From Effusibacillus dendaii (GTDB lineage: Bacteria; Bacillota; Bacilli; Tumebacillales; Effusibacillaceae), in the NCBI RefSeq assembly GCF_015097055.1, contig NZ_AP023366.1, positions 2,498,001 through 2,562,000 of the forward strand: a DNA stretch of 64,000 bases, in the 5' to 3' direction. This document shows positions 32,839 to 48,479 of this stretch, piece after piece. Made by a program: the position numbers and the translations under genes. The notes under the pieces were generated by a model. It saw nothing but the letters and a program-made list of their open reading frames with translations, was not told the origin of the DNA and made no database searches. Each line of letters opens with the position of its first letter. Position 1 is the stretch's first letter.

Positions 32839-33342
32839 ATGAGTTATCTGATTCGAAATGCGCATTTTCTTGTGATCCACATCCCGATTGCCATGTTGTT
32901 GTTCAGCTTTGTGTTCGATCTTCTTGCCACGATTTTAAAGAAGAAGGATTGGCATATCGCAGGTCTCTTTTGTCTGGTTATTGGGACGTTGGGCGCCATC
33001 GCAGCGGTGATTACTGGACCTGAAGGCGAGCGAAATCCCTTATTTCCCCAACATGAGCTGTTCGGAAAATTGACGATGATGCTTTCCATCTTGTTAACGT
33101 TAGTTCGATTGGGGATTCTTTGGAGAAAGAAAGTAGATATCGGTAAAAATCTCGTGTATCTGCTTGTTATGTTGGTGGGAGTCGGGTTGCTTTCTTACAC
33201 GGGACATCTTGGCGGAAAGATGGTTCATCCCGACCGCAGTCAAATGCACAAGGGACAGGTACAGCAACAAGGTGGCGTTGGTCAGGAAAATACGAATCGG
33301 CCAACGGGCATTCCTAAAACCAGCGGTGAAGGAAGCCGTTGA
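32839..33342 (+). CDS. four-helix membrane protein (DUF2231-like)
   Basis: The 167-residue protein starts at ATG 32839 (MSYLIRNAHF) behind AAAAAGGGAG; the in-frame TTG upstream is unlikely. It has four hydrophobic helices (VIHIPIAMLLFSFVFDLL, LFCLVIGTLGAIAAVIT, LTMMLSILLTLVRLGI, LLVMLVGVGLLSYTG) and a polar Gln-rich C-terminal tail. H-x-x-x-x-P in the first helix and the GHLGGKMVH end are typical of DUF2231-like proteins, which may bind haem. Function unknown. Confidence 0.72.
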   Translation: MSYLIRNAHFLVIHIPIAMLLFSFVFDLLATILKKKDWHIAGLFCLVIGTLGAIAAVITGPEGERNPLFPQHELFGKLTMMLSILLTLVRLGILWRKKVDIGKNLVYLLVMLVGVGLLSYTGHLGGKMVHPDRSQMHKGQVQQQGGVGQENTNRPTGIPKTSGEGSR

Positions 33343-33588
33343 CTTGTAAACGGAAGTCCTCAGATCCATGCTGCCGGTGGTTTTGAGGCTTCTTTGTTTA
33401 TACGTACAGTAGAGTTCGTACTATGATTCACTCCATAAAAAATCAATCTTGGGTTTGAGCTGTTTTAGGTATAAGAGTCGCCATCCATATATTTTTGATT
33501 ATGCATGAACTTACTGTCATTGTGTCTTGATAACGAGCTTCTTCATATTCTCTAATTGATAGAATAGATTAAGATCAACCGTCCTGAG

Positions 33589-33677
33589 CCGTATCACAAG
33601 TGATGGTAAAACAAAGGTTTGAATTTACAGTTGACGAATTAATGATAAATAAATTAGTCAATGATAAGGACAAATAA
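33589..33677 (+). other. attL core plus displaced 3' end of the recombinase gene
   Basis: The 22-bp core has the dyad ATCAC-AA-GTGAT (33593-33604). Read in the recombinase frame, bases after the core give K-QRFEFTVDELMINKLVNDKDK and TAA at 33675-33677. That is a sensible hydrophilic tail for the recombinase at 44686 in its unintegrated form. The rest of the gap 33343-33588 is AT-rich and holds no gene I can see. Confidence 0.7.
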
Positions 33678-33815
33678 AGAAGGAAATTATATTATAAGTG
33701 TCAAAATTCTTCTAATTGAGCAAAAGTGTTAGTTGCCGCATGGTTAGAATCAAACGTCTATGTTTGTTAGGTTTTTTAAATATAGTGAAACATGCTAAAG
33801 GGCTTGGAGGCCAAT

Positions 33816-35768
33816 ATGAAAGAACTTATAATTGGAAATCCAGAAAAACAATATCATAATCTTTCCCATGATGAACTTATAAAACTGTTGATAGAGAAAG
33901 AGGAAGAATTGCGTTTAAGCAAAGTGTTTACACCGTTTATATCAACAGAGGAAAATTTGGATGCTACTCTTCAATGGAGGGGAAGGCAGCGTTTTTTGGC
34001 TGAAAAAGTACGGCCCGTCAAATTGATTCCCGTTCCTGAGAAGTCACTCAATCCATCAAAAGGTGATAACTTAATAATAGATGGTGAGAATCTATCAGTT
34101 ATGACTTCTCTCTTAAAAGATTACCGTGGACAAATAGACGTGATTTATATGGATCCTCCTTATAATACGGGTAGCGATTCTCTCACTTATAATGATGATT
34201 TTATGTTGTCGAAATCAGAAGTGAAGAGAAATAGGAAAACCCACGGGCGCAGTAGTGAGATTGTTTCACTTGATGACCCTAACCGTCATACTAAATGGAT
34301 TAATCATATGGCTCCTAGATTATGGGCAGCCAAAAAACTTATGAAACCAACTGGAGTAATTATTATTTCAATTGATGAACATGAGCTTCCAAGATTGTGG
34401 ATGTTAATGGAGGAGATTTTTTTACCAAAAAACAGACTTGCTACATTAATTTGGCAGAGATCAAGAAAAAATGATGCAACTTACTTTTCTGAAGGACATG
34501 AATATATGCTTGTATGGGCACGCAATGTAGATGAATTGGATGCAAAAGTAAAGGAAAAGGGAAAGTGGCGAGAAGTAAAACCAGGGCTTGAAGACCATTT
34601 AGCAGAGTACAGACGGCTGAGAGAGATTCATAGTGATGATTATGAAGCAATTATAAAAGGTCTTAAACATTCGGTAAAAGGTATAAAGAAAGATAGCCCC
34701 TTATGGACAGTAAGGCAATACGTAGGTGTTGATTCAAAGAGCGATTTACTTGGCCCTTATAAGGAGGATGATCCTTCTTGGCCAGGTGGAGGAGGTCCGG
34801 ACTATGATGTATTTCATCCCGAAACTGGGCGTCCAGTTAGAAAGCCACCGAAAGGATGGATTGTGTCTACCCCTGAAGAATTTCAAAAACTCATAGATGA
34901 TGATAGAATAATATGGAAAAAGGTTGATAAGGGTACACCGAAAATTAAAAAATATCTGCTTGAGGGAAGAGAAAAAGATGTTTTTACATCGGTGATCAAT
35001 AAGGATGCTCGCGGCTCGGTAATGTTGGTAAAGTCTATTTTTGGTGACGAAAATGCTTTTAAAAATCCTAAAGATCACGAGATCCTTAAAAAGCTCATCA
35101 ATCTAGTTACTTGGGGAGATCCTGAATGTATTGTTCTTGATCCTTATGCAGGATCAGGAACAACAGCTCATGCAATAATAGAATTAAACCATGAATATGG
35201 TGGAAATCGCAGATTTATCCTTATTGAGGGAGGCTTCGTCGGTAAAAACACTAAAATTAATCAAGAAGATTATACTGATAAAATTACTGCAGAACGAATC
35301 CGTAGAGTAATAACTGGTAAGTGGGCAGATAAAAAGAAGCATTCTACTTATGATACAGGGTTTACTTATTTTCGTGCCGATAAAGCCATTACTAAAAAAG
35401 ATATTTTGGCATCTGATCGTGAGAGCCTTGCCGATGTGATATTACAAGTTGCTGAGGAAGAATCTAATCGAATCGACTGTCGCATTGAAGGACATCGTTA
35501 TCTAATTGGACAAACACGATCAGGGTTCGGCATTGCCCTTGTATGGGAATCCGGTAAAGATGGACGAACATTAACAATAGAGGTGTTAAAGGAAATTATT
35601 CAAGAGGCAGAGTCTCAAGGGTGTTCCAAGCCGATTCACATTTATGCCGCAGCTAACGAGGGGCCCGTTGCAGACAATATATATAGATTTCACCAGATCC
35701 CAGATGCAATATTAGCTAAACTTGGAATAACGGGTTTCGATGGGGAAGCGGAGGAAGAATGTGAATGA
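33816..35768 (+). CDS. type III restriction-modification methyltransferase (Mod)
   Basis: The 650-residue protein starts at ATG 33816 behind TTGGAGG. The catalytic motif DPPY is at residues 113-116 and the SAM motif DPYAGSGTT at about 442, the beta-class order of type III Mod subunits. The long middle part contains the target recognition region. It adds N6-methyladenine at an asymmetric site. The next gene overlaps by 4 bp (ATGA), as expected for Mod-Res pairs. The recognition site cannot be read from the sequence. Confidence 0.92.
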   Translation: MKELIIGNPEKQYHNLSHDELIKLLIEKEEELRLSKVFTPFISTEENLDATLQWRGRQRFLAEKVRPVKLIPVPEKSLNPSKGDNLIIDGENLSVMTSLLKDYRGQIDVIYMDPPYNTGSDSLTYNDDFMLSKSEVKRNRKTHGRSSEIVSLDDPNRHTKWINHMAPRLWAAKKLMKPTGVIIISIDEHELPRLWMLMEEIFLPKNRLATLIWQRSRKNDATYFSEGHEYMLVWARNVDELDAKVKEKGKWREVKPGLEDHLAEYRRLREIHSDDYEAIIKGLKHSVKGIKKDSPLWTVRQYVGVDSKSDLLGPYKEDDPSWPGGGGPDYDVFHPETGRPVRKPPKGWIVSTPEEFQKLIDDDRIIWKKVDKGTPKIKKYLLEGREKDVFTSVINKDARGSVMLVKSIFGDENAFKNPKDHEILKKLINLVTWGDPECIVLDPYAGSGTTAHAIIELNHEYGGNRRFILIEGGFVGKNTKINQEDYTDKITAERIRRVITGKWADKKKHSTYDTGFTYFRADKAITKKDILASDRESLADVILQVAEEESNRIDCRIEGHRYLIGQTRSGFGIALVWESGKDGRTLTIEVLKEIIQEAESQGCSKPIHIYAAANEGPVADNIYRFHQIPDAILAKLGITGFDGEAEEECE

Positions 35769-38086
35769 AAATTACTTTAGATGATCTAAAACCTTATCAA
35801 GTAAAAGCAGCAAGTGAACTAGCTACAATGGTTCAGGAGTATCCATCTGAAAAGTTTAAACCTGTATATAGCCGAACAACGGGAATGTTAGAGCCTTTTG
35901 TTAGTCGTCTTAAGGCAATTACAGGAGCAGGTAAGACACCAATTCTTGCTGTTACGGCAGGTCATCTCAAAACTGGTATTATCTTGTGGACAACTTCTCG
36001 TGGTGCAGTTATTTCTCAAACATACGAAAATTTACGCCCCGGTGGAAAGTATGCCGAGCTACTTCCAAAAGGAACACAAGTCTATCTCTTAAGTGAAATG
36101 AGCGTAACTGATTGGATGAATACAATGGCAGCTAAAGAAGGACTAACTATCCTTTTGGCGACAGTTGCATCTTTTAATCAGGACGGAGATAGTCTTCGTA
36201 TTCATCATCGTGGTGTTTATGGAGCCCTTTCTCGTTGGGAAATGCTTTCAAAGATAAATCAGGGAGTTGAATCACGGCATAGAAATCTATATGTGTTTTA
36301 TGATGAGGGTCATGGTGCTACTGCTGAACAATTTAGACGTTTAGCTGATATTAATCCTAAGGCTTTTATTCTTGCTTCTGCCAGCCCGTTTCCTTCTGAT
36401 TTGGCTTATCTCCTCCCTGGCGAAAGCCAGGAAGAGAGAGAGTTTTCTCTGCAAGAACGGACTGTTGCTGTTCCAACAAAATGGGTTGTAGAAGCAGGAC
36501 TCCTTAAGAATAGGCTTTATTTCACAGAATGTAATACATCGACTGAAAGTGCTGTTCAAGAAGCACAAACTAAATACAACGAGTTAACAGAAAAACTGAA
36601 AGAACACAATCTTTCTCCTATCGCATGTTTCATTGTTAATACTACCCAACGTGGAATAGATGTATGGGAGGCTTTAATAAAGCTTGGAGTGCAGAAAGAT
36701 AAAGTTGCAGTTCACCTAAATGGTGCAAAAGATGTTTTATATGAGCGTTATGGTTCCTATCTGGGAATTATAGATACTTACACTGGAAAAAAGGCAGTAG
36801 AAAGATCTCCTGAGGTTTTAAGGAAAGGCGGATTTACACATATCATTTGGAATCTCACTTTACGGGAGGGGTGGGACGAGCCGTTAGCCTATGTGGCTTA
36901 CATTGATGATCGAGGAAGATCCCAAACAGATATTGTTCAAAAGATAGGTAGATTCATTCGTCAACCTAATGCTAATCCTTTTAGTGATCCAGATTTGAAT
37001 TCAGCATATTTTTACTTTAATATCCCTGATGAGGAGTTCGCAAAACTTATTGAACAAACCCAGAGTGAACTGGAAATTGAGGGGCATGAAATATTAAGGA
37101 TTAAGGAGGATCTACCTCTACCTCCTAGCCGTGAAGTTGTTCCTCGAGTTACGGCGGAAGTTCCCGTTGTTTATATGTCCAGAGGCAAACCATCAGAAAA
37201 TGATAAAATAGTTCTTGATGCGGTGAAATTGCTTGATGAGGCAGAACGGCAAGCGAAAGGCCATCTCTTAACAAGGGTTTATGAGGTTGCTAAGGGCGAA
37301 AACCCTGACCTAATAAGAGAAGAGTCGAAAGATTATGGTGACAGTATTACTGTATGGGAATTTCTTGTAAACCGTCTTCAGCGAATAGATTCTAGGATTG
37401 TTAATAGTACTGGAACAATATTTACTAATGATTTGCGGTTGTCACCACAAATGAATCAACAAATACAATGGGGATCACCTGCGATCGGCTACCTAGAGAG
37501 ATGTGTAAAAGAGATAAAGGATGCTTTAGAAAATCAAATACAACTGATCAGTTTAGGGATCGAATCTTATAAAGTACCACCCTTTAGACTTATTAGTCCA
37601 GACGTAAAGGGGGTGGGGAGCGCCAAAGAAGATCGATATAAAGTCAGAAAATATAAAAACGCTGTTCATCCGGAATATAATGGGATGAATCCTTTTGAAA
37701 TTCGTGTTGCAGAAGCCCTTGATGAAACTGGCAGGTTATGGACTAGGAACCCAGGAACTAATTTTGGCTACGGTATTCCAATTCCTGTTTATGGAGTAGA
37801 TAGTGGTACGTTTAGACCGGATTTTCTTTTATGGGGTCAAAAAACTATTTGGGCAATAGACCCAAAGGGGAAACATCTTCTTGAAGGCACTCTGGCTTCA
37901 AAAATGTTGGATATAAGTGAAGTTGGAGTAAAAATTGCACTTGTTCTTGACGGAACCTATGAAAAAAATGGAGAGTCGTGGGTAAGGACAGGTCAAAGTG
38001 GATATACTCTTATCAGGAAATACCTAGGTGGAATTAAACCTAAAATTTTCAATGATCTAAGTACTCTTTTAGCTGATTTAGAGTAG
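35765..38086 (+). CDS. type III restriction endonuclease (Res)
   Basis: The 773-residue protein has a superfamily 2 helicase core with Walker A TGAGKT (residues 53-58; the usual Thr/Gly-rich loop is slightly changed), Walker B-like DEGH at about 180, and QKIGRFIRQP (motif VI). The C-terminal PD-(D/E)XK nuclease shows RPDFLLW and AIDPKGK (about 684-702). It cleaves DNA together with Mod after ATP-driven movement between two head-to-head sites. It forms an operon with mod and ends at a bidirectional terminator. Confidence 0.92.
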   Translation: MKITLDDLKPYQVKAASELATMVQEYPSEKFKPVYSRTTGMLEPFVSRLKAITGAGKTPILAVTAGHLKTGIILWTTSRGAVISQTYENLRPGGKYAELLPKGTQVYLLSEMSVTDWMNTMAAKEGLTILLATVASFNQDGDSLRIHHRGVYGALSRWEMLSKINQGVESRHRNLYVFYDEGHGATAEQFRRLADINPKAFILASASPFPSDLAYLLPGESQEEREFSLQERTVAVPTKWVVEAGLLKNRLYFTECNTSTESAVQEAQTKYNELTEKLKEHNLSPIACFIVNTTQRGIDVWEALIKLGVQKDKVAVHLNGAKDVLYERYGSYLGIIDTYTGKKAVERSPEVLRKGGFTHIIWNLTLREGWDEPLAYVAYIDDRGRSQTDIVQKIGRFIRQPNANPFSDPDLNSAYFYFNIPDEEFAKLIEQTQSELEIEGHEILRIKEDLPLPPSREVVPRVTAEVPVVYMSRGKPSENDKIVLDAVKLLDEAERQAKGHLLTRVYEVAKGENPDLIREESKDYGDSITVWEFLVNRLQRIDSRIVNSTGTIFTNDLRLSPQMNQQIQWGSPAIGYLERCVKEIKDALENQIQLISLGIESYKVPPFRLISPDVKGVGSAKEDRYKVRKYKNAVHPEYNGMNPFEIRVAEALDETGRLWTRNPGTNFGYGIPIPVYGVDSGTFRPDFLLWGQKTIWAIDPKGKHLLEGTLASKMLDISEVGVKIALVLDGTYEKNGESWVRTGQSGYTLIRKYLGGIKPKIFNDLSTLLADLE

Positions 38087-38093
38087 TTGATAG

Positions 38094-38126
38094 GCTGTTG
38101 GGAATTATCCCAACAGCTTAGTTTTT
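38094..38126. terminator. bidirectional terminator between res and xre
   Basis: GCTGTTGGG (38094-38102) pairs with CCCAACAGC (38109-38117), followed by TTAGTTTTTTG. The two genes converge here. Confidence 0.82.
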
Positions 38127-38162
38127 TGTTTGGGGAATTGTAAAACGAAGTCAATCCAGACC

Positions 38163-38510
38163 TCAAGTTTTATGTTGGGGGAAAGTGCGGAAAATTTCAG
38201 ACAAAATGTTTTTTGCCATTGTAACCTGTCTTTCCTCACGACTACTTAGCAACAGTACGATCTCATTTATGATTGCTTGTTTTTCCTCGCTTAACTCTTG
38301 CTCAAAGTTAAAAAAGTCGTGAATGTTAACTTCAAGTGCTTTCGCAATCTTCGCTAAGTTAACCAGTGATATATTCCGTTCGCCACGCTCTAGCCCACTT
38401 ATATAAGTAAAGTGAAACCCTGACTTTTCACCAAGTTGCTCTTGGGACAAATTTTTAGTCTTGCGTATATCTCTTATTCGTTTACCTACGAATTCTAGGA
38501 TATCTGCCAT
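38163..38510 (-). CDS. Xre-family helix-turn-helix regulator
   Basis: The 115-residue protein has an N-terminal HTH_3 domain (IRDIRKTKNLSQEQLGEKSG, FHFTYISGLERGERNISLVN, LAKIAKALEV) and a C-terminal helix of unknown role. I use ATG 38510 (MADILEF) with GAGGTG upstream. It is convergent with the RM genes and divergent from the gene at 38657, and it probably controls the shared region 38520-38656. It could also act like a controller protein for the RM system, but it does not lie upstream of mod. Confidence 0.85.
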   Translation of the reverse strand: MADILEFVGKRIRDIRKTKNLSQEQLGEKSGFHFTYISGLERGERNISLVNLAKIAKALEVNIHDFFNFEQELSEEKQAIINEIVLLLSSREERQVTMAKNILSEIFRTFPQHKT

Positions 38511-38567
38511 TTTGAACACCTCAAAAGAAGTGTAGACAATGGGATAAGCATAGGTAATAGGTTTATA

Positions 38568-38611
38568 AGTATTAAAAAATAATACTAAAAAGTATCGAAA
38601 GCTCGTATAAT
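38568..38611 (+). promoter_or_regulatory. promoter with probable Xre operator
   Basis: The dyad AGTATT (38568-38573) / AATACT (38581-38586), plus a further AGTAT at 38591, overlaps the -35 position of a TATAAT at 38606-38611 that drives the gene at 38657. The operator lies between xre and its divergent neighbour. Confidence 0.45.
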
Positions 38612-38656
38612 AGTGCTTGTGTTTGGAAACTTTTTCTGGAGAGAGGATGCAGATTA

Positions 38657-39361
38657 ATGAGTCAGGGGAAAAATGCTGCTAGAACTGTGAGCAACAGCGC
38701 AAACAAAACTAATGACAAAGCGGCAAACAAAGCCGCTTCAATGAACCCAAGTACACAAAAGGAAGGAAAAAAAAGCAATAGTTTTCTGCAAGGATGTCTC
38801 GGGTGTTTAGGAATCATAGTACTATTGTCAATTGCGGCTACGGCAGTGGCGTTAGTTTTTTCAGCACTTGATGATTCACCAAAACGGCAAGAAAAGATAG
38901 TGACAGGGAACAGTCAGCAGGTAGAAGACAATGTACAAGCTGAAGTGAGGCAAGTTATCGTTGACACTTTAGGGGAAACAGCCAATACCGGGGAGCCGAA
39001 AATAATCAATTTGCAAGTGAATGATCATTTAGGAACTGCGGATGGAAATGATAAGATTGTGGTTGCTACACTTCATGCCAACGAAAACCTGACAAACAAC
39101 ATGACGAAAGGCGGAATACTATTAGAATCAACTAATGTATTGAAAAAACTGTTCACTATTGATAAAGTTCAGGAAGTTACGTTAATTTGGCAGTTGCCGC
39201 TGGTTGATGCATACGGGAATAAACAAACGGAGCCAGTCTTAAAGATAACGATAGATAAAGAAAAGGCAGCAAAAATTAATTGGTCAAACTTTGACCGGAA
39301 TAATCTAAAAAATGTAGTAAATACATACTGGGAGCATCCGGTATTAAAAAACAATAAGTGA
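38657..39361 (+). CDS. hypothetical membrane-anchored protein
   Basis: The 234-residue protein has a Ser/Thr/Asn/Lys-rich cytosolic start (1-45), one transmembrane helix (GCLGIIVLLSIAATAVALVF) and an extracellular alpha/beta part of about 160 residues with VVATLHANENLTNNMT. A Cys pair (QGCLGCLG) precedes the helix. I recognise no family. It is within the integrated element and divergent from xre, so it may be regulated by it. Confidence 0.6.
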   Translation: MSQGKNAARTVSNSANKTNDKAANKAASMNPSTQKEGKKSNSFLQGCLGCLGIIVLLSIAATAVALVFSALDDSPKRQEKIVTGNSQQVEDNVQAEVRQVIVDTLGETANTGEPKIINLQVNDHLGTADGNDKIVVATLHANENLTNNMTKGGILLESTNVLKKLFTIDKVQEVTLIWQLPLVDAYGNKQTEPVLKITIDKEKAAKINWSNFDRNNLKNVVNTYWEHPVLKNNK

Positions 39362-39455
39362 GAAGATATTTACATCAAAGGTAAAAGGTCTTAAAATACA
39401 ATCAACAAACAATACACACTTAGAAACCTTGAGATAAATGCTTGCAAAAACTTAG

Positions 39456-39493
39456 AAGGCTTATTCCACCTTGCATTGGAGTGAGCCTTTTTT
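39456..39493 (+). terminator. terminator or attenuator before the coiled-coil gene
   Basis: AAGGCT (39456-39461) and AGCCTT (39484-39489) close a longer imperfect stem (TTATTCC/GGAGTG), followed by a T run. It may end the upstream transcript. Confidence 0.6.
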
Positions 39494-39525
39494 GCATGTC
39501 AAAAAACACTAAGGAGGAAAAGACA

Positions 39526-39999
39526 ATGGCAAGGAAAGTACAAGCGGTAAAGGAAAAGAAAGTGGGTTTGATTGCCCAGGCGCAAGCAGAGTATGACGCA
39601 ATTATGGATGAGATCAGAGAGTATTGGCAGAAGGCAAAGGAGTTAAGGGAACAAGCGCAACAATTGAGACAAAGCAGGGATTCGCAAGCAGCGGTGGAAG
39701 CAAAGCGGCTGTTAGAGCAGGCTGAATACTATGACCAGTTAGGCGACGAAAAAGACGGACACCCAAGACTGGAAGCACTTCGCCGGATTGATGATTTACA
39801 ACGTCAAGCATCTGCGTTAAAAGCAAATATTAGTTACAACGAAAGCGTGTTAGCTAAACAACAAAGGGAACTCGAGGGAGCGAAGGAAGAAGCGATCCTG
39901 ATAGTAAAACGAGCAGAGGAACGAGTACAAGTAACGGAACAGCTTTTAGTTTGTGCGGTAGAGCAACTAGCAGAATTGGAGGGAAACCGAGTTGAGTAA
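39526..39999 (+). CDS. coiled-coil hypothetical protein
   Basis: The 157-residue protein starts at ATG 39526 behind TAAGGAGG. It is almost wholly helical and highly charged, rich in Gln, Glu, Ala and Lys (AEYDAIMDEIREYWQKAKEL; ALRRIDDLQRQASALKANI), consistent with a long coiled coil. No enzyme motif is present. It starts a tight row of four phage/plasmid-like genes, and its end overlaps the next mini-ORF. Confidence 0.6.
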   Translation: MARKVQAVKEKKVGLIAQAQAEYDAIMDEIREYWQKAKELREQAQQLRQSRDSQAAVEAKRLLEQAEYYDQLGDEKDGHPRLEALRRIDDLQRQASALKANISYNESVLAKQQRELEGAKEEAILIVKRAEERVQVTEQLLVCAVEQLAELEGNRVE

Positions 40000-40057
40000 G
40001 GTAGAAATTGAAATAGTGGACGACAAGGATTTAATTGAAATTGAAGTGGAGGACTAG
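39992..40057 (+). CDS. 21-residue acidic mini-protein
   Basis: TTG 39992 opens MSKVEIEIVDDKDLIEIEVED and TAG, with GGAGGGAAACCGAG just upstream inside the previous gene. It overlaps that gene by 8 bases and is 2 bp before the next ATG. Its alternating Glu/Ile pattern and position in a tight operon favour real coding, but no relative is known to me. Confidence 0.4.
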   Translation: MSKVEIEIVDDKDLIEIEVED

Positions 40058-40059
40058 GT

Positions 40060-40230
40060 ATGTCCAAGTTAAGCCCACAAGCGCTAGAAGCAAGGCGACA
40101 ATACAGAAGGAAATATGAAAGGGAATATAAGCGGAAGTGGCGGCAGAAGCCAGAAAATAAAGCGAAGCAAAAAGAGTACGAGCGGCGATATTGGGAACGC
40201 AAGGCACAACAAAATGCACAGGGGGAATAG
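40060..40230 (+). CDS. 56-residue basic hypothetical protein
   Basis: ATG 40060 follows GGAGGACTAGGT. The product MSKLSPQALEARRQYRRKYE is continued by many Arg, Lys and Tyr in a helix-like pattern, resembling small basic phage or plasmid proteins that bind nucleic acid. Function unknown. Confidence 0.55.
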   Translation: MSKLSPQALEARRQYRRKYEREYKRKWRQKPENKAKQKEYERRYWERKAQQNAQGE

Positions 40231-40234
40231 ACAA

Positions 40235-40420
40235 ATGGAACAAACAATGGAGCAATTCTTACTTGAAGAACTAAACTTGGCAAACGAAAGTCACACAAGA
40301 TTATTCAATCTTTTAGAAAGCTATATGGAGTTTGTTGCAGGAGTAGGATTGCAAGATGAGTTTAATGCCTACCTAGCGAGAAAAGTCCAAAAGAAACAAG
40401 CTGAAAATGAGTTGAAATAG
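40235..40420 (+). CDS. 61-residue hypothetical protein
   Basis: ATG 40235 follows AGGGGGAATAG, 4 bp behind the previous stop. The product (MEQTMEQFLLEELNLANE, then LLESYMEFVAGVGLQDEFNA) looks like two amphipathic helices with no known motif. It belongs to the same tight operon. Confidence 0.55.
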   Translation: MEQTMEQFLLEELNLANESHTRLFNLLESYMEFVAGVGLQDEFNAYLARKVQKKQAENELK

Positions 40421-40505
40421 ACATGAGGTTAAAGGGCTGGGGACTTGTTCCCCTCCCCTCGGTTAGGGAAACGAACCCCATGAATTGAGGTTAGGCGGTG
40501 AAAAA

Positions 40506-41003
40506 ATGGAGATAAGGCTATGTGGAGCCAAAACGAGAAGCGGAGAACCTTGTAAGAAAGCCGCTCTAAAGAATGGAAGGTGTCGATTACATGGCGGAAA
40601 GTCCACGGGACCGAAAGACCCTTCAAAGCTAAAAGCCAATACAAACGCATTGAAGCACGGACTGTATGAAACCATTTGGCTAGATACTTTGACGGACGAA
40701 GAACGGGAGCTATTTGCCCAGGTGGCAACAGACCCGAAAGCACAGGTTGAAAATGAGTTCCGGTTATGTGAAATACGCATTAGGCGTATGATGCAACGGA
40801 TTAGAAATGAGGAACAGAAAGATAAGCCGGATATGCGCCGCATCAATGCACTGGAAGAAGCAATTACAAAGGTACAGTTGAATAAAGCAAACCTGATACG
40901 CGAAAACAGCAGGCTGTTAGAACTAAACGTAACTGAAAGCGATGGTGCATTAGATAAACTGGCAGAGATAATCCGACAAGCAAGACACAAACATGGCAAT
41001 TAG
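40506..41003 (+). CDS. HGGxSTG-motif protein (phage/element type)
   Basis: The 165-residue protein has an N-terminal Cys/His segment LCGAKTRSGEPCKKAALKNG and RCRLHGGKSTGPKDPSKL, the HGGxSTG motif, followed by ALKHGLYE and a charged helical C-terminus. Such proteins occur in prophages and integrative elements and are sometimes called small terminase subunits. ATG 40506 follows GGCGGTGA. A role in packaging is not shown here because no large terminase is present. Confidence 0.65.
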   Translation: MEIRLCGAKTRSGEPCKKAALKNGRCRLHGGKSTGPKDPSKLKANTNALKHGLYETIWLDTLTDEERELFAQVATDPKAQVENEFRLCEIRIRRMMQRIRNEEQKDKPDMRRINALEEAITKVQLNKANLIRENSRLLELNVTESDGALDKLAEIIRQARHKHGN

Positions 41004-41198
41004 CATAGGGGCACAAGGCGTTTAGCTTTGTCGGCTCCTTTTTTGTTTAGCTTTTGACGGTGAGAACGTATAACCTTGTGTGCCGAAATATTTATTAAAA
41101 TCCCTTTGTTATGGTGTATCAAGGCGAATATTCGTAAAAGTAATTGTAATTTCCTTAATCTGGGTCGTATAGTGTTTACAAAAAAGGAGGCACTGGAC

Positions 41199-42008
41199 AT
41201 GGGTAACGTGACAATGAAGAAAGTGGTTGGATACGCTCGTATTTCTTCAGATAGCCAGATCGAGAATACTTCCATAGCGGAACAGGTAAAAAAGATTGAG
41301 GCGTACTGTATTAGCCAAGGTTGGGAACTGGCAGGAATATTTAAGGATGAAGGAGAAAGTGGTAGTACGACCGAACGAGACGGATACAGGGATATGATGC
41401 AATATGTTCAGCAGGTTGAAAATGAAGTGACGGGAATTGTCGTGGTGAAGGCAGACCGTATACACAGAAGGTTGAGAAACTTGATTTTATTGATAGAGGA
41501 TGAACTGGAACCGAAAGGAATTGCCTTCATTAGTGTATCGGAAAATTTTGATACATCTACACCGTCGGGAATGATGTTCCTGCAAATGATAGGGTCTTTT
41601 TCAGAGTTTGAACGGAAGACCATTAATGAGCGGACAAAAGTCGGACGGATTGCCACTGCCAAGGGAAATAAATATGCTGGCGGCGCACCTGCCTATGGGT
41701 ATCGGGTACAAAATGGTGTGATTATCGTAGACGAGCAACAAGCACAAACGGTAAAGAACATATTTCAACTCTATGTTGAGGGGAATAATCCATACAAAAT
41801 CGCTTGCAAGTTGAACCAATCAGGCATACCAACCAAGACAGGGAAGGCTTGGACAGTGGTGCAGGTACAAAACATTTTGAACAACGAGACGTATACAGGT
41901 TTCAATATGTACAACGGGCTAAAGGAGCGGAACGGAATTCGGCAGAAAGACGTATTTCCTCGTATCATTAGCCGCCAGTTGTGGAACAAGGCTAGACAGA
42001 TAAGCTGA
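41199..42008 (+). CDS. serine recombinase, short form
   Basis: The 269-residue protein starts at ATG 41199 behind AAAAAGGAGG. The N-terminal resolvase domain has the catalytic Ser in GYARISSDSQ, VVVKADRIHRRLRNLI and FLQMIGSFSEFERKTINERT. A 'recombinase' DNA-binding domain follows (GGAPAYGYRVQNGVI to ILNNETYTGFNMYNG). The zinc ribbon and coiled coil of large serine integrases are missing, so it is about half the size of the one at 44686. It may be a resolvase/invertase or a truncated integrase. Confidence 0.85.
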   Translation: MGNVTMKKVVGYARISSDSQIENTSIAEQVKKIEAYCISQGWELAGIFKDEGESGSTTERDGYRDMMQYVQQVENEVTGIVVVKADRIHRRLRNLILLIEDELEPKGIAFISVSENFDTSTPSGMMFLQMIGSFSEFERKTINERTKVGRIATAKGNKYAGGAPAYGYRVQNGVIIVDEQQAQTVKNIFQLYVEGNNPYKIACKLNQSGIPTKTGKAWTVVQVQNILNNETYTGFNMYNGLKERNGIRQKDVFPRIISRQLWNKARQIS

Positions 42009-42035
42009 TCGAAAGAAAGATGGGAGGATGAGCAG

Positions 42036-42206
42036 ATGAGTGAACCCAAACAGCCGACGATGATGCGTTCAGAAGACTACAATGAACTGATTGACATGGC
42101 ATTAGTAACCAAGGACATGGAATGGTTTGACGAACTGCAAAAAAAGCAAAAGTGTCTACGAGAAATGGAGATAGAGATGCGTCGGATGCTTGGAGTTATC
42201 GACTAG
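42036..42206 (+). CDS. 56-residue hypothetical protein
   Basis: ATG 42036 follows GGGAGGATGAGCAG. The product MSEPKQPTMMRSEDYNELID continues with a highly charged helix ending MRRMLGVID. No family is recognised; it follows the recombinase by 27 bp and may be its operon partner. Confidence 0.5.
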   Translation: MSEPKQPTMMRSEDYNELIDMALVTKDMEWFDELQKKQKCLREMEIEMRRMLGVID

Positions 42207-42607
42207 GAAACTGGAAGGCTATACGCAGACCAACGAGAACCGGGCGAGATGACATTTTTTTGGGAGCATACCACAAATGACACCGAGCCAGAGAGAAATA
42301 AACGAGAGCGAACCATCTCGTAAGGTCAGAAAATTCTTATTGACTCTAGACAACCCATGTGTCATACTGTTCGTACAGTATTCGATTTTGGTTAAGGGAT
42401 ACTGCTAACTTGCCCAAACTCTGAAAACCTAGAAAACACACTTAAAGCACTTGGAAAACACTTTTATTGGTGATTTCAAGTGCTTTTTTGCGTTTTTCAC
42501 ACGTTGAAAGGCAAGGTGTCCGATAATTACTTAATTAGTCGAGTAAGTCTTAAAAAATACAAATCGTAGTCAGTAAAAAGTGTAGGAGAATGGGAGGGCA
42601 GCAAGCT
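42207..42607. other. intergenic region with a terminator
   Basis: No gene is seen. A terminator AAAGCACTTG (42444-42453) / CAAGTGCTTT (42477-42486) with TTTTTTG behind it lies in the second half. The bases after it are AT-rich and could hold an origin for the Rep-like gene, but no iterons were seen. Confidence 0.5.
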
Positions 42608-43900
42608 ATGAAAGCAAAGGTATCAATAGACAAATTCGTAATGGAATATACAGATGTGCCGTTAAGCGCCTACTATGCTTTAGTGGGCAAGGCTGTTAAG
42701 AGTGGGGAGTTGTATAAACAGTATTTTTATTGTGAAGGGTACAGTTATCAATTGCATTTGAAGAAGGCAGACGGTGCTTATTTGCATGTTTTTTATAGAA
42801 ACTGGATTGAGCCGGAAGGCATGTCATACACGTTGCGGTTAGAAACAAGACCTGAGTATTACTTTCATTTTAAGGAATTGCTGGATGCTCTGCGCCGTGT
42901 TGCCAGCGGCATTTACTTTGTTAGCTGTGATATTGCCTACGATGTAAAGACTTCAATGGATAATGTGGTGGTTATTCCTCATGATGGTCGTCGAAAATTG
43001 GGGGAATTCAAAGAGACACTCTATATCGGGGAGAAGCATCAACGGAAGACGAATGGTCATTGCAAGATATATAACAAGCAGTTGGAATTGTTAGAAAATC
43101 AAAACATAGTAATTGACCACGAATTGACCCGAATCGAAATAGTTTACAAGCCAGAACAGAGAATACCATTAGCAGAATTGCTGCATCATCCACCTGAGCA
43201 AAACAAGCAATACTTTGCAGCGGTGATTACTGACTGGGACAGTCTTCCGAAGAAACGGGCAGAACAGGCGCGTATGCTGATGAAAAAGGAAGAAAGTAAG
43301 AAAGTATCGCCATATATACGGAAAATGGTAAAAGAAACCCTTGCTCCCTCGTCTCAAGTGGATCTCAACGAGTTAGCAAGGGAAGCATGGAAGCCGCTGT
43401 TAGAAGAACTATGTGGGTTATTGCTTGGGCAGCAGGAACCACAAGTTCAAGAGCGACCGTTACAAATGGCAGTAACAAATACAGTATACGATGAACCCAA
43501 GAAAGAAAACGACAGAAAAAATGAGAATTGTGCAGATTATGGAAAACACCGTCACCATCGATTCGAGAAGCAAAGCATTGCGATTGACCATGAGTTCAGC
43601 TGTATTGAGATTGTATACAACCCTGACAAGAACATCTTGCTTTCGGATGTGGACAGGTATCTTCCGGAGCGGAACGAGAAATATTTTGCGGCGGCGGTAC
43701 TAGATTGGAGTAAACTTCCTAAGAAACGGTCAGGACAGGCTCGAAACATGAGAGACGGAATCGATATGTACATCCATCATATACGAGAAAGGGTAAGAGA
43801 AACCCTTGCTCACCCGTATCACGTTGATTTCAACCGGTTGGCAATGGAACAATGGGGACAGTTAATTGAGGAACCGAGTTTGATATTGCTGGCTGCTTAA
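42608..43900 (+). CDS. plasmid-type replication initiator-like protein with internal duplication
   Basis: The 430-residue protein starts at ATG 42608 behind GGGAGGG. The first 170 residues hold YSYQLHLKKADGAYLHVFY and HCKIYNKQLELLE, then IDHELTRIEIVYKPE; this resembles the Rep_trans replication factors, in which a Tyr in an (I/L)YxK motif nicks DNA. Residues about 169-274 and 326-430 are homologous (IDHELTRIEIVY versus IDHEFSCIEIVY; SLPKKRAEQAR versus KLPKKRSGQAR), so the C-terminal module has been duplicated. Replication activity is inferred, not proven. Confidence 0.6.
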   Translation: MKAKVSIDKFVMEYTDVPLSAYYALVGKAVKSGELYKQYFYCEGYSYQLHLKKADGAYLHVFYRNWIEPEGMSYTLRLETRPEYYFHFKELLDALRRVASGIYFVSCDIAYDVKTSMDNVVVIPHDGRRKLGEFKETLYIGEKHQRKTNGHCKIYNKQLELLENQNIVIDHELTRIEIVYKPEQRIPLAELLHHPPEQNKQYFAAVITDWDSLPKKRAEQARMLMKKEESKKVSPYIRKMVKETLAPSSQVDLNELAREAWKPLLEELCGLLLGQQEPQVQERPLQMAVTNTVYDEPKKENDRKNENCADYGKHRHHRFEKQSIAIDHEFSCIEIVYNPDKNILLSDVDRYLPERNEKYFAAAVLDWSKLPKKRSGQARNMRDGIDMYIHHIRERVRETLAHPYHVDFNRLAMEQWGQLIEEPSLILLAA

Positions 43901-44085
43901 TCGACTGGTGCAAATCATTTTTAAGTAAAAGACCGTACGGGAAGAGATACAACAGTGTTTTTCACAATATAAGATGGGTTGTGTTGATTTTGCGAAAAAT
44001 CCTATAATTCGTGTTAACACTTTCCTTTGCTAGATAAGTGGTCTACGAAAAAAGTTTCAAATTTTTTTCTGGAGTCCTAAAAAAA

Positions 44086-44132
44086 TGGCCTCAAAAAATA
44101 TATATCCTATGAATTCAATTTCAAGGAGGCCA
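44086..44132 (+). promoter_or_regulatory. hairpin that would hide a ribosome binding site
   Basis: TGGCCTC (44086-44092) is complementary to GAGGCCA (44126-44132), which includes part of the AAGGAGG site of the gene at 44138. A 33-base AT-rich loop lies between. In RNA this would block translation. Confidence 0.45.
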
Positions 44133-44137
44133 AAAAT

Positions 44138-44476
44138 ATGATGAATCCAAAATTGCAAGAATCTAAGAAAACTAAAGAAGTGCGTGAATATCTAGAAGGG
44201 TTGTATCAAGAGGAGGAGGAGACAAAGGCACGAATTGATGCGCTCGATGCAGCTATTAGGCATTTAGCAAGATTTGAGAGAACCCCCCACGATCATAATG
44301 TTAATTTTTATATAATCAAGAGTCTTCTTTCCTCACTCAATGAATCTAAACGCTTCGAAGAAGAAATGCTTCAGATTACTAGGGAGGATATATTATATAC
44401 GTTGATGAACGGTCTTAAGTCTCGCGGCAAGAAAAATTCTAACAGTAACAGTATCGGTAATGAACAAGACAACTAA
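44138..44476 (+). CDS. 112-residue hypothetical protein
   Basis: It starts at ATG 44138 (a second ATG follows at once) behind AAGGAGGCC, which lies in a possible hairpin. The product is hydrophilic and helical (VREYLEGLYQEEEETKARID; ALDAAIRHLARFE) with a Ser/Asn-rich end. I recognise no domain. It lies upstream of the integrase and may be an accessory or directionality factor by position only. Confidence 0.5.
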   Translation: MMNPKLQESKKTKEVREYLEGLYQEEEETKARIDALDAAIRHLARFERTPHDHNVNFYIIKSLLSSLNESKRFEEEMLQITREDILYTLMNGLKSRGKKNSNSNSIGNEQDN

Positions 44477-44488
44477 GGAGAGCGCCAG

Positions 44489-44611
44489 ATGCAGACCGAG
44501 AAAAACTCGTTAGTAAAATTGACTGAGGCAGAAATCAAAAGATTAGAGGCAATAAGAACACTTGCAGAACTTGTTAGAAAGTATGCTCAACAAATAGTAA
44601 CGGAAAAATAA
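44489..44611 (+). CDS. 40-residue hypothetical protein
   Basis: ATG 44489 follows TAAGGAGAGCG. The product MQTEKNSLVKLTEAEIKRLE continues AIRTLAELVRKYAQQIVTEK, one or two amphipathic helices. It is 12 bp behind the previous gene and is followed by a perfect terminator, so it is likely coding though too short for gene callers. Confidence 0.5.
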   Translation: MQTEKNSLVKLTEAEIKRLEAIRTLAELVRKYAQQIVTEK

Positions 44612-44617
44612 ATTTAA

Positions 44618-44658
44618 AAGGATAGACGTTTGAATTATTAAAGCGTCTATCCTTTTCA
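44618..44658 (+). terminator. terminator before the integrase gene
   Basis: AAGGATAGACG (44618-44628) pairs perfectly with CGTCTATCCTT (44644-44654), followed by TTC and T-rich sequence. Confidence 0.82.
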
Positions 44659-44685
44659 TTCATATAAAGATGGGAGATGGAAACG

Positions 44686-46296
44686 ATGAAACAAGAGAAA
44701 TTTGCAGCCATTTATACACGAGTAAGTACGGAAGAACAAAGAAATGAAGGATACTCACTTGAAGCTCAACAAGAGGAGCTTATCAGCTATGCCCAGAAAA
44801 AGGGGTACACGATATATGATGTGTACTCCGATGGTGGATACTCAGGAAAAGATTACAATAGACCTGAGATTCAACGATTATTTAGAGACATGGCCGACAA
44901 GAAGTTTGATGCAATCATTGTTTGGCGGCTCGACCGACTTTCCAGAAGTAATAAAGATATACTAATTCTCATTGAAGATGAATTGATTCCCAGAGATATG
45001 AAATTATTGGTGAGTACTTGTGATATTGATTCATCCACCATTGAAGGACAAATGTTCATTAGTCTTCAAGGCACATTTGCTCAATATGAACGGAAAGTGA
45101 TAATAAACAGGGTCAAGAGTGGAATGAAAAAGAGGGCAAGCAACGGTGAGTTCAACGGGGGATTAATGCTTGGATATGATGTTGTGGATAAAAAACTCGT
45201 GCCTAATGAGTTAGAGGCGAAAATAGTTAGGGAAATCTTTGAACTTAGAGCAGAAGGACATGGATACAAGACAATTGCAAACATAATGAATAGCTGTGGT
45301 CACAAGACAAAAAAGGGAAACAATTTCAGTACAATAGCAATTAAAACGATTTTGAATAACAAGGAATATGCGGGATTAAATACATGGGGGAAGAAAGAGG
45401 ACTGGAACATAAAGCGCAGGAAAGGTAAGGTAGAGGTAATGCCTGAGCGTAAAGGTAGTCATCAGCCTATAATTTCAATGGAACTATGGGAGAAAGTTCA
45501 GGCTGTGAATAAGGCTAATGCTGAAGTTTTTACCCCTATCAAATCGTATAGCGGTAACTTTTTCCTATCCGGTGTCTTGAAATGTCCTGCATGCGGTGCT
45601 GGAATGGTTATGAGTAAGAACAAGAAACGGGGGGATAAAGGTTTCTATCGTTACTATATGTGCCAGGCATACCATCAAAAAGGAAAAGTAGCGTGTTCTT
45701 CAAATCTTGTTGTTGCGGATTGGATAGAGCAGGAAGTATTAAATGTGCTGAAAGAACTTATAGCCGATATGGATTTAGTTGAAGATATTTTAGACAAAAT
45801 TGATGAAGGATACAAAAGGGATAAAACCCCCTTGGAAGCAAACCTTAATGAACTGAACCTTAGGAAGGCTGAACATGAGAAAAAAATAAACAGTCTTGAT
45901 GAAAAGTATCTTGCCGGGGAACTGGAAGCAGTCAATTTCAATCGACTTTCGAGTAAACTTCAATCAGAGATTGACGAAATGACCGAAATGATAGAGAAAG
46001 TTGAAAGAGAACTAACAAAACTTCAATCAAGGGTGGATATTAACGCCAATTTAGTGGTGGAAATATTGGCGAACTTCAACGAACTGTTTGACCTAGCTGA
46101 TGAGCAGGAGAAGAAAGAGTTGATTAGGGCAATTATTAAGGAAATTCATGTGTCCAAAGATCGGAAAGAACTTAAGCAAATCTCCCTATGGCTCGGTGAC
46201 GATATATGTTTACCAGCAAAAAAGGAGCGCAGAACCGTATCACAAGTGATGGTAAAGGAAATTGACTGTACCTTATGCGTATTTAGTTACGAATAG
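44686..46296 (+). CDS. large serine recombinase/integrase of the element
   Basis: The 536-residue protein starts at ATG 44686 (GGGAG 10 bases upstream fits it better than ATG 44677). It has a resolvase catalytic domain with S14 in YTRVSTEEQ, a recombinase domain, a zinc ribbon (LKCPACGAGM, then YYMCQAY and VACSSN) and a coiled coil (LNLRKAEHEKKINSLDEKYL). It should integrate and excise the element. The attachment core 46235-46256 lies within the gene: the last residues (after SQVMVK) are encoded by flanking chromosome, so the integrated form carries a foreign tail EIDCTLCVFSYE. Confidence 0.93.
   Translation: MKQEKFAAIYTRVSTEEQRNEGYSLEAQQEELISYAQKKGYTIYDVYSDGGYSGKDYNRPEIQRLFRDMADKKFDAIIVWRLDRLSRSNKDILILIEDELIPRDMKLLVSTCDIDSSTIEGQMFISLQGTFAQYERKVIINRVKSGMKKRASNGEFNGGLMLGYDVVDKKLVPNELEAKIVREIFELRAEGHGYKTIANIMNSCGHKTKKGNNFSTIAIKTILNNKEYAGLNTWGKKEDWNIKRRKGKVEVMPERKGSHQPIISMELWEKVQAVNKANAEVFTPIKSYSGNFFLSGVLKCPACGAGMVMSKNKKRGDKGFYRYYMCQAYHQKGKVACSSNLVVADWIEQEVLNVLKELIADMDLVEDILDKIDEGYKRDKTPLEANLNELNLRKAEHEKKINSLDEKYLAGELEAVNFNRLSSKLQSEIDEMTEMIEKVERELTKLQSRVDINANLVVEILANFNELFDLADEQEKKELIRAIIKEIHVSKDRKELKQISLWLGDDICLPAKKERRTVSQVMVKEIDCTLCVFSYE
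46235..46256 (+). other. attR core of the integrated element
   Basis: Identical over 22 bases to 33589-33610, with the same dyad ATCACAAGTGAT. It lies in the 3' end of the integrase gene. Confidence 0.78.
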
Positions 46297-46419
46297 AATT
46301 CAGTGTTTTTATATATAAAGTTCTCAAGCAGAAAATCATGTTTGAATAATCAGGTGTTATAAACAAGTCTCTATTGTGGTACGATTGTTATAGGGATTAT
46401 TTGAATGGGGTGCTATATT

Positions 46420-47454
46420 ATGAAAAATCTAATGAATCAACTTAACGAGCAAAAGCTAAAAGTTGATTTCGATTCTTATGATTTTAGTGTAAAAGAAATA
46501 ATAAACATGGTTTCTGAAGACATAATAAACATAGCGCCAGAATACCAACGTCAATTTCGTTGGGATGAAAAACGCCAATCGGTTCTCGTAGAATCTATCT
46601 TTCTAGGTATTCCCATTCCTAATTTGTTTATGGCCACAAATGCGGATGGTACTTGGGAAGTAATTGATGGAGTTCAGAGAATTAGTACTATTGTTCACTT
46701 TGCTGGCGATGAAAAAGCATTAGCAAAAGTAGGGTTAAATGCTCCACTTACCATTACGGGGTTAGAGAAATTATCAACTTTAAATGGGTTGACATTCCAT
46801 GAATTACCTAATTCAATAAAATTAAATTTTATTCTTAAACCTCTAAAAATAACAACACTCAGTGATAAAAGTGACCTTAATGTCAGATTTGACCTTTTTG
46901 AAAGGCTGAATACTGGTGGGATCAGATTAAGTGATCAAGAAATTAGGAGTTGTATATTTCGTGGTCCCTTTAATGATTTCCTGAAAGAAATGGCACAAAA
47001 AGAGGAATTTAATAAAGTTGTTAAATTGCCTAAAGAAAAAGAAAATGATGGGACACCTGAAGAATTGGTGTTGCGGTTTTTTGCATACCTTCATAATTAC
47101 CAAAATTTTGAACATAGTGTTGTGGGTTTTTTAAATGATTTTATGAAGAATGCAAGTATAAAATTTGATTATGAATATAATAGAAATTTATTTATGGCTG
47201 TTTTTTCAGAATTAGCTGTTGCGCTTCCCAATGGAATTACCAGAAGATTAAAGACAACTCCTTTTAACTTGTTTGAAGCGGTCTCAGTAGGGGCTGCTTT
47301 AGCATACAAAAAAAATGGTAAGATTGTTACAGATGGTATTGAAGAGTGGATTCAATCTTCTGAATTAAAAACGCTAACTTCAGGAGCAACGAATTCTAAT
47401 CCTAAAGTAAGAAGAAGAATTGAGTATTGTTTATCTAAATTTGAGGGTAAGTAA
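46420..47454 (+). CDS. DUF262-domain protein
   Basis: The 344-residue protein has an N-terminal DUF262 domain (ParB-like fold related to GmrS/DndB-type NTPases): PEYQRQFRWDEKRQSVLVES and IFLGIPIPNLF, with the signature DGVQR (residues 83-87) in place of the usual DGQQR, and ERLNTGGIRLSDQEIRS. The C-terminal DUF1524 His-Me nuclease of GmrSD is absent. The stop overlaps the start of the next gene by one base. DUF262 proteins are found in DNA-modification-dependent and other phage defence systems. Confidence 0.85.
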   Translation: MKNLMNQLNEQKLKVDFDSYDFSVKEIINMVSEDIINIAPEYQRQFRWDEKRQSVLVESIFLGIPIPNLFMATNADGTWEVIDGVQRISTIVHFAGDEKALAKVGLNAPLTITGLEKLSTLNGLTFHELPNSIKLNFILKPLKITTLSDKSDLNVRFDLFERLNTGGIRLSDQEIRSCIFRGPFNDFLKEMAQKEEFNKVVKLPKEKENDGTPEELVLRFFAYLHNYQNFEHSVVGFLNDFMKNASIKFDYEYNRNLFMAVFSELAVALPNGITRRLKTTPFNLFEAVSVGAALAYKKNGKIVTDGIEEWIQSSELKTLTSGATNSNPKVRRRIEYCLSKFEGK

Positions 47455-48125: not shown

Positions 48126-48141
48126 GAAAATATTTGATTAA

Positions 48142-48179
48142 AAGAGCAGGGTTTAGTAACCTGTTCTTAATTTTTTTTG
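48142..48179 (+). terminator. terminator of the DUF262-HEPN operon
   Basis: AAGAGCAGG (48142-48150) pairs with CCTGTTCTT (48160-48168, one G-T pair), followed by eight T. Confidence 0.85.
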
Positions 48180-48289
48180 CGAAAAGTATTATAATATTGT
48201 ATAAAATTCAATTTAAAACTTGGAGGACTATATACAATGAACCCATAAGGTGAGACACAAGGAGGAGATAAATAAGTTATACGGAGGAC

Positions 48290-48479
48290 ATGGAGAAACG
48301 AAATCGATATACGGCAGAATTTAAGACGAAGGTCGTACTGGAAGTGCTGAGGGAAGAGCAGACGGTGAATGAAATTGCCGGGAAGTATGAAATCAGTCCG
48401 GTGATGTTGAGCCGGTGGAAAGGAGAATTTTTGGAGCGAGCCTCCATGGTGTTCGGACGGGAAAGCAAGGCAGCTGAAA
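48290..48479 (+). pseudogene. orfA of IS3 copy 1, 5' piece
   Basis: MEKRNRYTAEFKTKVVLEVL leads the helix-turn-helix of IS3-type OrfA; identical to the start of the copy at 52980. The gene is cut after CTGAAA (48474-48479) by the transposon and resumes at 51481. Confidence 0.82.

Follow-up and report, generated by a model that had tools for sequence, protein, structure and literature searches.

A CcrB-like serine integrase gene of Effusibacillus dendaii and related Bacilli that probably crosses its attachment site and changes its tail on integration

Control of serine integrases is thought to lie in site geometry and in directionality factors. The staphylococcal and enterococcal cassette chromosomes (SCC and ECC) target the rlmH 3' end in Staphylococcus and Enterococcus (PMC6222049), and islands with large serine recombinases lie downstream of rlmH in Bacillus and others, where their inverted repeats include the last rlmH codons, some of them are composite and many carry restriction-modification cargo (PMC10061031). 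Here we describe an element of 12.6 kb in Effusibacillus dendaii with likenesses to both groups. It is situated in a stretch of 64,000 nucleotides (the window; bases 2498001-2562000 of the 3.45-Mb single-contig genome, NZ_AP023366.1) and belongs to a family that shares with SCC/ECC, in three of the five elements with a known left end, the rlmH 3' end as target, and further an attachment (att) core of the TATCATAA type, a CcrB/CcrC-homologous integrase, several att copies per island and arms with the last rlmH codons (PMC6222049). Unlike SCC/ECC, it has one full-length CcrB-like enzyme together with a short Ccr-like protein, the attachment site of the free element (attP) lies within the integrase gene, and the window copy is situated away from rlmH. 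In its available text, the account of SCC/ECC contains no mention of an integrase tail that depends on recombination (PMC6222049); the study of the Bacilli islands, as far as its available part goes, has polymerase-SSB (single-stranded DNA-binding protein) pairs as its subject and does not describe an integrase gene crossing an att site (PMC10061031).

The archaeal 'suicidal' tyrosine integrases (SSV1, pTN3 and pT26-2) also have the att site inside the integrase gene, which is split on integration and complete in the free form (PMC8371274). The same review calls self-disrupting integrases exclusive to archaea (PMC8371274). In contrast to the archaeal enzymes, the present one is bacterial and of the serine family, only its last 20-29 residues would be exchanged, and its catalytic, recombinase and zinc domains are kept together. 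The split gene is recognized here by reading frames and by a coding signal in the tail, and is known from integrated sequences alone. In the integration-dependent immunity of mycobacteriophages (BPs gp33), attP lies in a reading frame and integration shortens the C-terminus, by 33 residues in BPs and by 20-35 in M. abscessus prophages, so that the protein reports the state of the element (PMC4557955, PMC8092301). There the repressor is altered, and its longer form is degraded via an ssrA-like tag (PMC4557955, PMC8092301), whereas here the integrase itself would be altered. In the window, attP does not lie in a repressor gene, the gene for a helix-turn-helix (HTH) protein being more than 4 kb from either att site. 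By eye, the integrase tails lack a typical ssrA-like ending. Our literature search returned no paper that we recognized as describing a serine-family integrase tail changed by integration.

Two copies of a perfect 22-bp repeat, CCGTATCACAAGTGATGGTAAA, at 33589-33610 and 46235-46256, bound the element with a spacing of 12646 (family D6 of the repeat search), and the right copy lies in frame inside the 3' end of the integrase gene (Table 1); both points had been made in an earlier note on this DNA and were found as claimed. The pair is not due to chance, because CCGTATCACAAGTGA is limited to exactly three sites in the genome: one in each repeat copy and a third at the rlmH 3' end (position 2395172), which lies 136 kb upstream of the element. 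The final rlmH codons are GAG CCG TAT CAC AAG TGA (E-P-Y-H-K-stop), and the 22-bp repeat copies this end of the gene. The repeat lies at the attachment site, but its 22 bp probably do not contain the core at which crossover takes place; the likely point is the GA of the rlmH Glu codon just to their left. Because the crossover is placed at this GA, the swapped tails amount to 20 residues in the integrated form and 29 in the free form, rather than the 12 and 21 counted before. The integrated reading frame ends in ...RRTVSQVMVKEIDCTLCVFSYE, and past the left repeat copy the integrase frame stays open through VSQVMVKQRFEFTVDELMINKLVNDKDK to its TAA stop. The integrated tail is derived from flanking DNA, as proposed; the right flank is, however, unlike plain host DNA and has an element-type arm, CACAAGTGATGGTAAA.

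The best explanation overall, to which we assign a probability of roughly 0.68, is that the integrase gene lies across the att site and that its tail is trimmed or replaced on integration. It is quite probable that the gene is completed only in the circle.

Table 1. Features of the element and its ends in the window (positions of the window)
Feature	Position	Strand	Remarks
Element between the two predicted crossover points, 12,646 bp	33588..46233	+	
attL left half-site (B-type), ends ATTAAGATCAACCGTCCT	33561..33585	+	likeness to the rlmH C-terminus in the last codons only (IKINRPEPYHK)
attL predicted crossover dinucleotide GA	33586..33587	+	symmetry-centre scan; rlmH codon profile
P' arm, left end of the element	33588..33612	+	TGGTAAA at 33604-33610 mirrors TTTACCA of the P arm
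Separated integrase 3' end, 29 codons and TAA (AVSQVMVKQRFEFTVDELMINKLVNDKDK)	33588..33677	+	predicted to join the integrase in the free circle; family codon test
Type III restriction-modification cargo	33792..38086	+	methyltransferase 33792-35768, Res 35765-38086; Pfam and PADLOC
HTH (HTH_3) protein	38163..38519	-	domain search
Backbone gene, small-terminase-like HGGxSTG protein	40485..41003	+	68-71% identity in 3 related loci, 51% in Bacillus sp. RO1
Short Ccr-like serine recombinase, the second of the element	41196..42008	+	matches to Resolvase and Recombinase domains but not to a zinc ribbon
Backbone gene with a weak, sub-threshold Rep_trans match	42590..43900	+	identity 83-86% in 3 related loci, of which one is partial, and 34% in Bacillus sp. 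RO1
CcrB-like large serine integrase, integrated form	44677..46296	+	539 residues: 519 fixed and 20 junction-dependent
P arm inside the integrase coding sequence	46209..46231	+	TTTACCA at 46209-46215
attR predicted crossover dinucleotide GA	46232..46233	+	symmetry scan; rlmH codon profile
attR right half-site, P' type (CACAAGTGATGGTAAA)	46234..46260	+	probably relic arm of a neighbouring element; present tail TVSQVMVKEIDCTLCVFSYE extends to 46296

Relatives were obtained by scans, ten in genome contigs and one in viral contigs, and eight of the eleven are informative for the integrase end (L023 is broken, L025 and L026 are partial or distant). In seven of these eight (L017, L018, L020, L021, L022, L024 and L027) the integrated integrase stops inside the att site and ends in TVS, TVP or TLP; that of P. 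pasadenensis (L019) reads through into flanking DNA, like that of the window. The earlier note had held that homologous integrases with the same last residues at unrelated sites would argue against a tail that changes with integration. Seven of eight do end alike, yet the stop sits to the right of the inferred crossover, and because it lies in rlmH-type DNA, where rlmH mostly has CAT, the common integrated ending appears to be dictated by the target that these elements share rather than by the integrase gene. Separately, a truncated copy of the integrase N-terminus (an open reading frame of 154 aa) lies just upstream of the integrase in L018 (9944-10405) and L205 (12266-12727).

Five elements, that of the window included, could be read at both ends. 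Their left end is at the rlmH 3' end in Bacillus sp. RO1, Peribacillus deserti and P. pasadenensis, and elsewhere in Paenibacillus sp. J31TS4 and the window; they measure 8.6-14.4 kb, and in several of them genes similar to a small terminase subunit and to Rep are present. Each of the five left arms starts with CAC AAG TGA TGG TA[A/C] A, the paired left end carries the final rlmH codons and restores PYHK-stop in the rlmH frame, and the integrase frame runs on through the left arm (P') for 24-29 codons. The P' tails in this frame are SQVMVKQRFEFTVDELMINKLVNDKDK (window), SQVMVNKKIEFTVHIEKIKQFKLKKGDK (RO1), SQVMVKQKRSLELSKKIIDEITS (P. deserti), PQVMVHKIKQEIILERGYIDRLN (Paenibacillus sp. J31TS4) and SQVMVHTIRKEIVFDSSYISRLRR (P. 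pasadenensis). The claim that excision would give a different, longer tail is thereby supported, the continuation of the frame into the other element end having the look of a family trait, and a state-dependent integrase tail is supported as a putative property of the family. A query for the empty site of the P. deserti element had matches in 157 of 398 genomes; among the matches listed, none reached more than 29 bases past the rlmH stop.

The origin of the stop codon was approached with rlmH genes sampled by protein family from 40 hand-picked genomes of 37 genera, which gave 30 loci, none with the arm of the element after it. The His codon of rlmH is CAT in 25 and CAC in 5 of the 30. By contrast, it is CAC in all five integrase-anchored P' arms, where it keeps the integrase frame open (Fisher p 7.8e-4, for rows that are related and not independent). 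Only these five arms were used for the contrast, because the pattern used in the search for further arms contained CAC and biased what it found; a count of 18/18 CAT in rlmH loci (2 of 20 being off-pattern) was likewise discarded as biased, since these loci were best matches to a CAT-containing query. An rlmH reading ...CAT AAG... gives TAA in the integrase frame (caT AAg). Furthermore, 6 of the 30 sampled rlmH loci go straight from the stop codon into ATGAGGTT, the sequence right of GA in attR of RO1, an agreement that has the features of an empty-site match in other species. Because CAT is found in 25/30 rlmH genes and the right flank of RO1 is the ATGAGGTT of arm-less rlmH loci, the TAA that ends the integrated integrase in the relatives most likely belongs to the His-Lys codons of the host and not to the element. 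In a host whose rlmH has CAC, the integrated integrase would be left without a stop given by rlmH. The choice between TAT and TAC is silent in rlmH and gives S or P in the integrase frame, and the integrated ends TVS, TVP and TLP follow the rlmH codons.

The codons of the separated tail provide a further line of evidence. The P'-arm pattern was found in 27 of 398 genomes of the class (the E. dendaii genome included), and a control pattern gave 1 match. From 40 distinct arms 33 were kept, L091, L099, L109, L163, L166, L181 and L189 being dropped by judgement as chance or other-family matches; L150 is outside the row pattern of the arm set. In the integrase frame all 25 CAC-type arms stay free of stop codons over 17 codons or more, compared with 0 and 2 of them in the other two frames. 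Two groups of tails were chosen by eye. In the first, a clade with the motif HxIRKEI (15 rows, 12 distinct), the column diversity of codons 7-20 is 0.19, 0.17 and 0.45 at positions 1, 2 and 3, and the third-position excess was reached by 1 of 20,000 column permutations, a count that is not a strict probability for rows that are related and grouped by eye. The ratio of mean dN to mean dS (nonsynonymous and synonymous divergence) in this clade is 0.185 over 28 pairs; over codons 7-25, dN/dS is 0.237, with 4 of 20,000 permutations. The second group (12 rows, 8 codons) has the same, weaker trend (369 of 20,000). Of all the evidence, this codon test speaks most strongly for the view that the integrase frame of the separated tail is translated within a protein.

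The same observations bear on a simpler explanation, in which the integrase gene and attP merely abut, the tail has no function, and stop loss and new tails are by-products of an rlmH-derived core at the end of a gene. Such an overlap would be a simple route to tail changes, and it agrees with integrated ends that are dictated by rlmH codons and vary at TAT/TAC. It also agrees with the 8 of 33 P' arms that are closed at once in the integrase frame (7 with CAT, 1 with AAC), several of which keep an otherwise good tail; these arms also count against a tail maintained for the integrase. On the other hand, the tail is under purifying selection when read in the integrase frame, also beyond the arm, and the frame is consistently opened via CAC, which makes an overlap without function unlikely.

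The window copy is an atypical member of the family. On the left it is flanked by a sequence other than rlmH, and on the right its half-site is a P'-type arm (CACAAGTGATGGTAAAGGAAATTG) instead of a native rlmH half; most simply, this half-site is the relic end of a neighbouring element, and the right junction looks like the window integrase joined to the arm of that neighbour. From the nature of these two half-sites, the present tail, EIDCTLCVFSYE, is probably DNA of the neighbouring element, and the window integrase would have been re-tailed rather than trimmed. The rlmH gene of the genome itself (L051 1169-1240, at genome position 2395172; it ends GGPYHK) is followed by an arm of the same P' type (VSQVMVKQRIEIIISSP, then stop), an apparent element relic, and no integrase was matched in the 20 kb read near it. 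Directly right of the element, at 46405-48125, are a GmrSD_N gene (NsnA-like in PADLOC) and a HEPN gene, probable defence genes of a neighbouring island.

With such remnants at hand, the window element could also have its left arm from one element and its integrase from another, joined by deletions within an array, in which case the window circle would never form. That arrays are common here, that the right half-site of the window is itself P'-like and that the rlmH of the genome has another arm lacking an integrase within 20 kb would all fit this origin. It is nevertheless rather improbable, as the left and right arms of the window are a symmetric pair and the backbone next to the integrase matches that of the relatives.

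Several further points weigh against an integrase gene that crosses the att site and is completed in the circle. Only 5 of 9 integrase-bearing loci, counting that of the window, yielded a left end. Nor does rlmH always have CAT, as the five CAC genes indicate, and one locus (L253) has CAC with ATGAGGTT downstream. The empty site of the window element was not found, as among the 4 genomes of the genus only that of E. dendaii itself contains the left flank. No free circle or circular record was detected: the 71-aa joined end gave nothing by tblastn against plasmids and phages, the full-length integrase gave only relatives of less than 60% identity in the same sets, and a search of plasmid DNA gave none. 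An integrase at E<=1e-100 is present in only 1 of 26 arm-bearing genomes, and there it is truncated; many arms therefore appear to be relics or to belong to other, more distant integrases. Finally, all 25 CAC-type arms retain GTG at codon 4 or ATG at codon 5, which is compatible with separate translation of the tail. As for candidates in viral contigs, 21 stretches with the P'-core pattern were judged to be chance matches, the 40 bases upstream and the frames being without integrase or rlmH.

These start codons are the basis of another explanation, that the conserved P' peptide is a separate micro-ORF (a very short open reading frame), stop-start coupled behind rlmH (AAGTGATG, in which TGA overlaps GTG/ATG), its agreement with the integrase frame being incidental or secondary; the product could even act in trans on a tail-less integrase. 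Position and frame would suit a termination-reinitiation junction. A micro-ORF has no need for CAC over CAT upstream of its start, yet the anchored arms have CAC throughout and rlmH in only one sixth of the sampled loci. In addition, ATG is gone in 6 of the 25 CAC-type rows, and 25 of 30 among the arms listed are not behind a full rlmH, which leaves no upstream translation to couple. We therefore consider a separate micro-ORF quite improbable.

The tail lengths given above depend on the crossover at GA, which is favoured because attP symmetry, the rlmH codon profile and the exchange of right halves agree. At positions 17-23 to the left and to the right of GA, the reconstructed attP sites have inverted arms, TTTACCA...TGGTAAA in the window, RO1 and P. 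deserti and TGTACCA...TGGTACA in J31TS4 and P. pasadenensis, and the arm bases covary in 5/5. In a scan of 24 centres, 69 matched pairs were counted at GA compared with 43 at the next best. Large serine integrases have an attP of about 50 bp with inverted arms and a central dinucleotide (PMC3783163), and all five reconstructed sites share this anatomy, being symmetric about GA. The codon profile is based on 24 of 26 rlmH genes fetched from one genus (L190 and L195 are off-pattern and were dropped). Codons -17 to -7 are nearly fixed (synonymous diversity <=0.16), and the internal codons Glu -17, Tyr -14 and His -26 have a single form in 24/24. The final codons are split (Glu -5 GAG 15/GAA 9; Tyr -3 TAT 17/TAC 7; His -2 CAT 13/CAC 11), as if the DNA right of GA had arrived with elements. 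Moreover, one left half-site (GTTAAGCTGA) precedes CCA, CCG or CCT, and CAC or CAT, the differences starting at the third base of the Glu codon.

Two points count against this placement. Diversity also reaches 0.66 within codons -24 to -18 of rlmH, most of which encode Leu or Arg, so that the codon contrast rests on like-for-like residues and on the fixed block. In SCCmec a single base, the C in TATCATAA, is reported as essential for CcrAB (PMC6222049); it lies about 8 bp from GA on the right-hand side. A crossover right of the His codon, inside AAGT, with an integrase that has its own TAA in the P half and with the window and P. pasadenensis as stop-loss mutants, would suit that base, the 22-bp identity of the window taken alone and three rlmH-located arms that retain the host-like CCT TAT CAT (L203, L207 and L208), but it is very improbable in view of the symmetry centre at GA, the rise of rlmH variability at the Glu codon, the variety of codons found with one left half, and the CAT beyond the RO1 junction, which accompanies the downstream sequence of arm-less rlmH loci.

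The integrase has Resolvase, Recombinase and zinc-ribbon domains. Against NCBIfam it scores 309 bits for CcrB, 261 for CcrC and 94 for CcrA and reaches none of the curated cut-offs of these models (900 for CcrB); it is best described as a Ccr homologue outside the named Ccr groups, not CcrB proper. An AlphaFold2 model of the integrated form has a mean pLDDT (predicted local distance difference test) of 68.5 and a pTM (predicted template modelling score) of 0.35, with low confidence at residues 513-539, and is too weak for claims about tail function. An Rfam scan of 33000-48500 gave no match, and 44000-46500 contains no terminator-like site and no surplus of promoter-like sites. Backbone parts (small-terminase-like, Rep-like and integrase genes) are common to several relatives, and the HGGxSTG protein matches phrog_1889 (E 4.6e-27; terminase small subunit-like). 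The terminase-small-subunit-like and Rep-like genes lend the window element the look of a phage satellite. Nothing similar to its type III restriction-modification cargo was found in a comparison with 10 related loci, in which not every element is whole. SCC replication genes (Cch helicase; CcPol-MP or primase) were not found among the 9 element proteins scanned, which represent part of its open reading frames.

Some more distant loci have comparable arrangements. At two rlmH 3' ends (L174 and L180) a related arm (CACAAATAGTGGTAAA...) is found with the integrase frame open by eye (QIVVKQRIELEV...) and TAG as the rlmH stop, possibly a sister integrase family of the same design. The recombinase frames of L014 and L011 (36-38% identity) by eye enter rlmH antisense, giving long host-derived tails. 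As a candidate for a second target gene, a 43%-identical integrase at 2900-3200 of L009 enters a cupin-like gene; it was not counted as support, there being no matching left end in the ~38 kb upstream.

Taken together, we propose an SCC-like island family in Bacilli in which the gene of a CcrB-like integrase would span the attachment site. The sequence supports a P half of attP within the integrase gene and a P' half, at the opposite element end, with the last ~25 codons of that gene; the two halves are contiguous in the free circle only and would be separated by integration at rlmH. Where the host rlmH ends in CAT AAG, an in-frame TAA would arise and the integrated integrase would end ...TVS; where the joined half-site reads CAC, a foreign tail would be added, as in the window. 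The P' arm restores the C-terminus of rlmH (PYHK-stop) in one frame and would encode the integrase tail in another. The circle would make the full-tail enzyme, presumably selected to integrate, and the tail-less or mis-tailed form may be less active or altered in direction, which would help to keep the integrated state stable. That a tail tied to the state of the element would favour integration over excision is inferred by analogy with phage repressors (PMC4557955, PMC8092301) and archaeal suicidal integrases (PMC8371274). The tail change may be a functional switch, although we regard the idea as slightly doubtful. The fullest version is more doubtful still and is put forward tentatively: a serine-family 'suicidal' integrase whose att site doubles as the rlmH C-terminus and the integrase tail, in which the penultimate His codon of the host would pick the integrated form of the enzyme, the full-tail circle form would drive integration, the trimmed or chimeric form would lock the element in, and the arm of a neighbour in tandem arrays could re-tail and re-arm the integrase.

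If the proposal is true, an enzyme whose own sequence reports the free or inserted state of its element would be a different and very simple kind of control, and these elements would provide a bacterial, serine-family case of a self-disrupting integrase beside the archaeal ones. The attachment site would be under three constraints together: recognition as attP, coding for rlmH and coding for the integrase. Integrase sequences that come from SCC-like elements in the integrated state may be without their natural tail, a point of relevance when such enzymes are cloned as tools.

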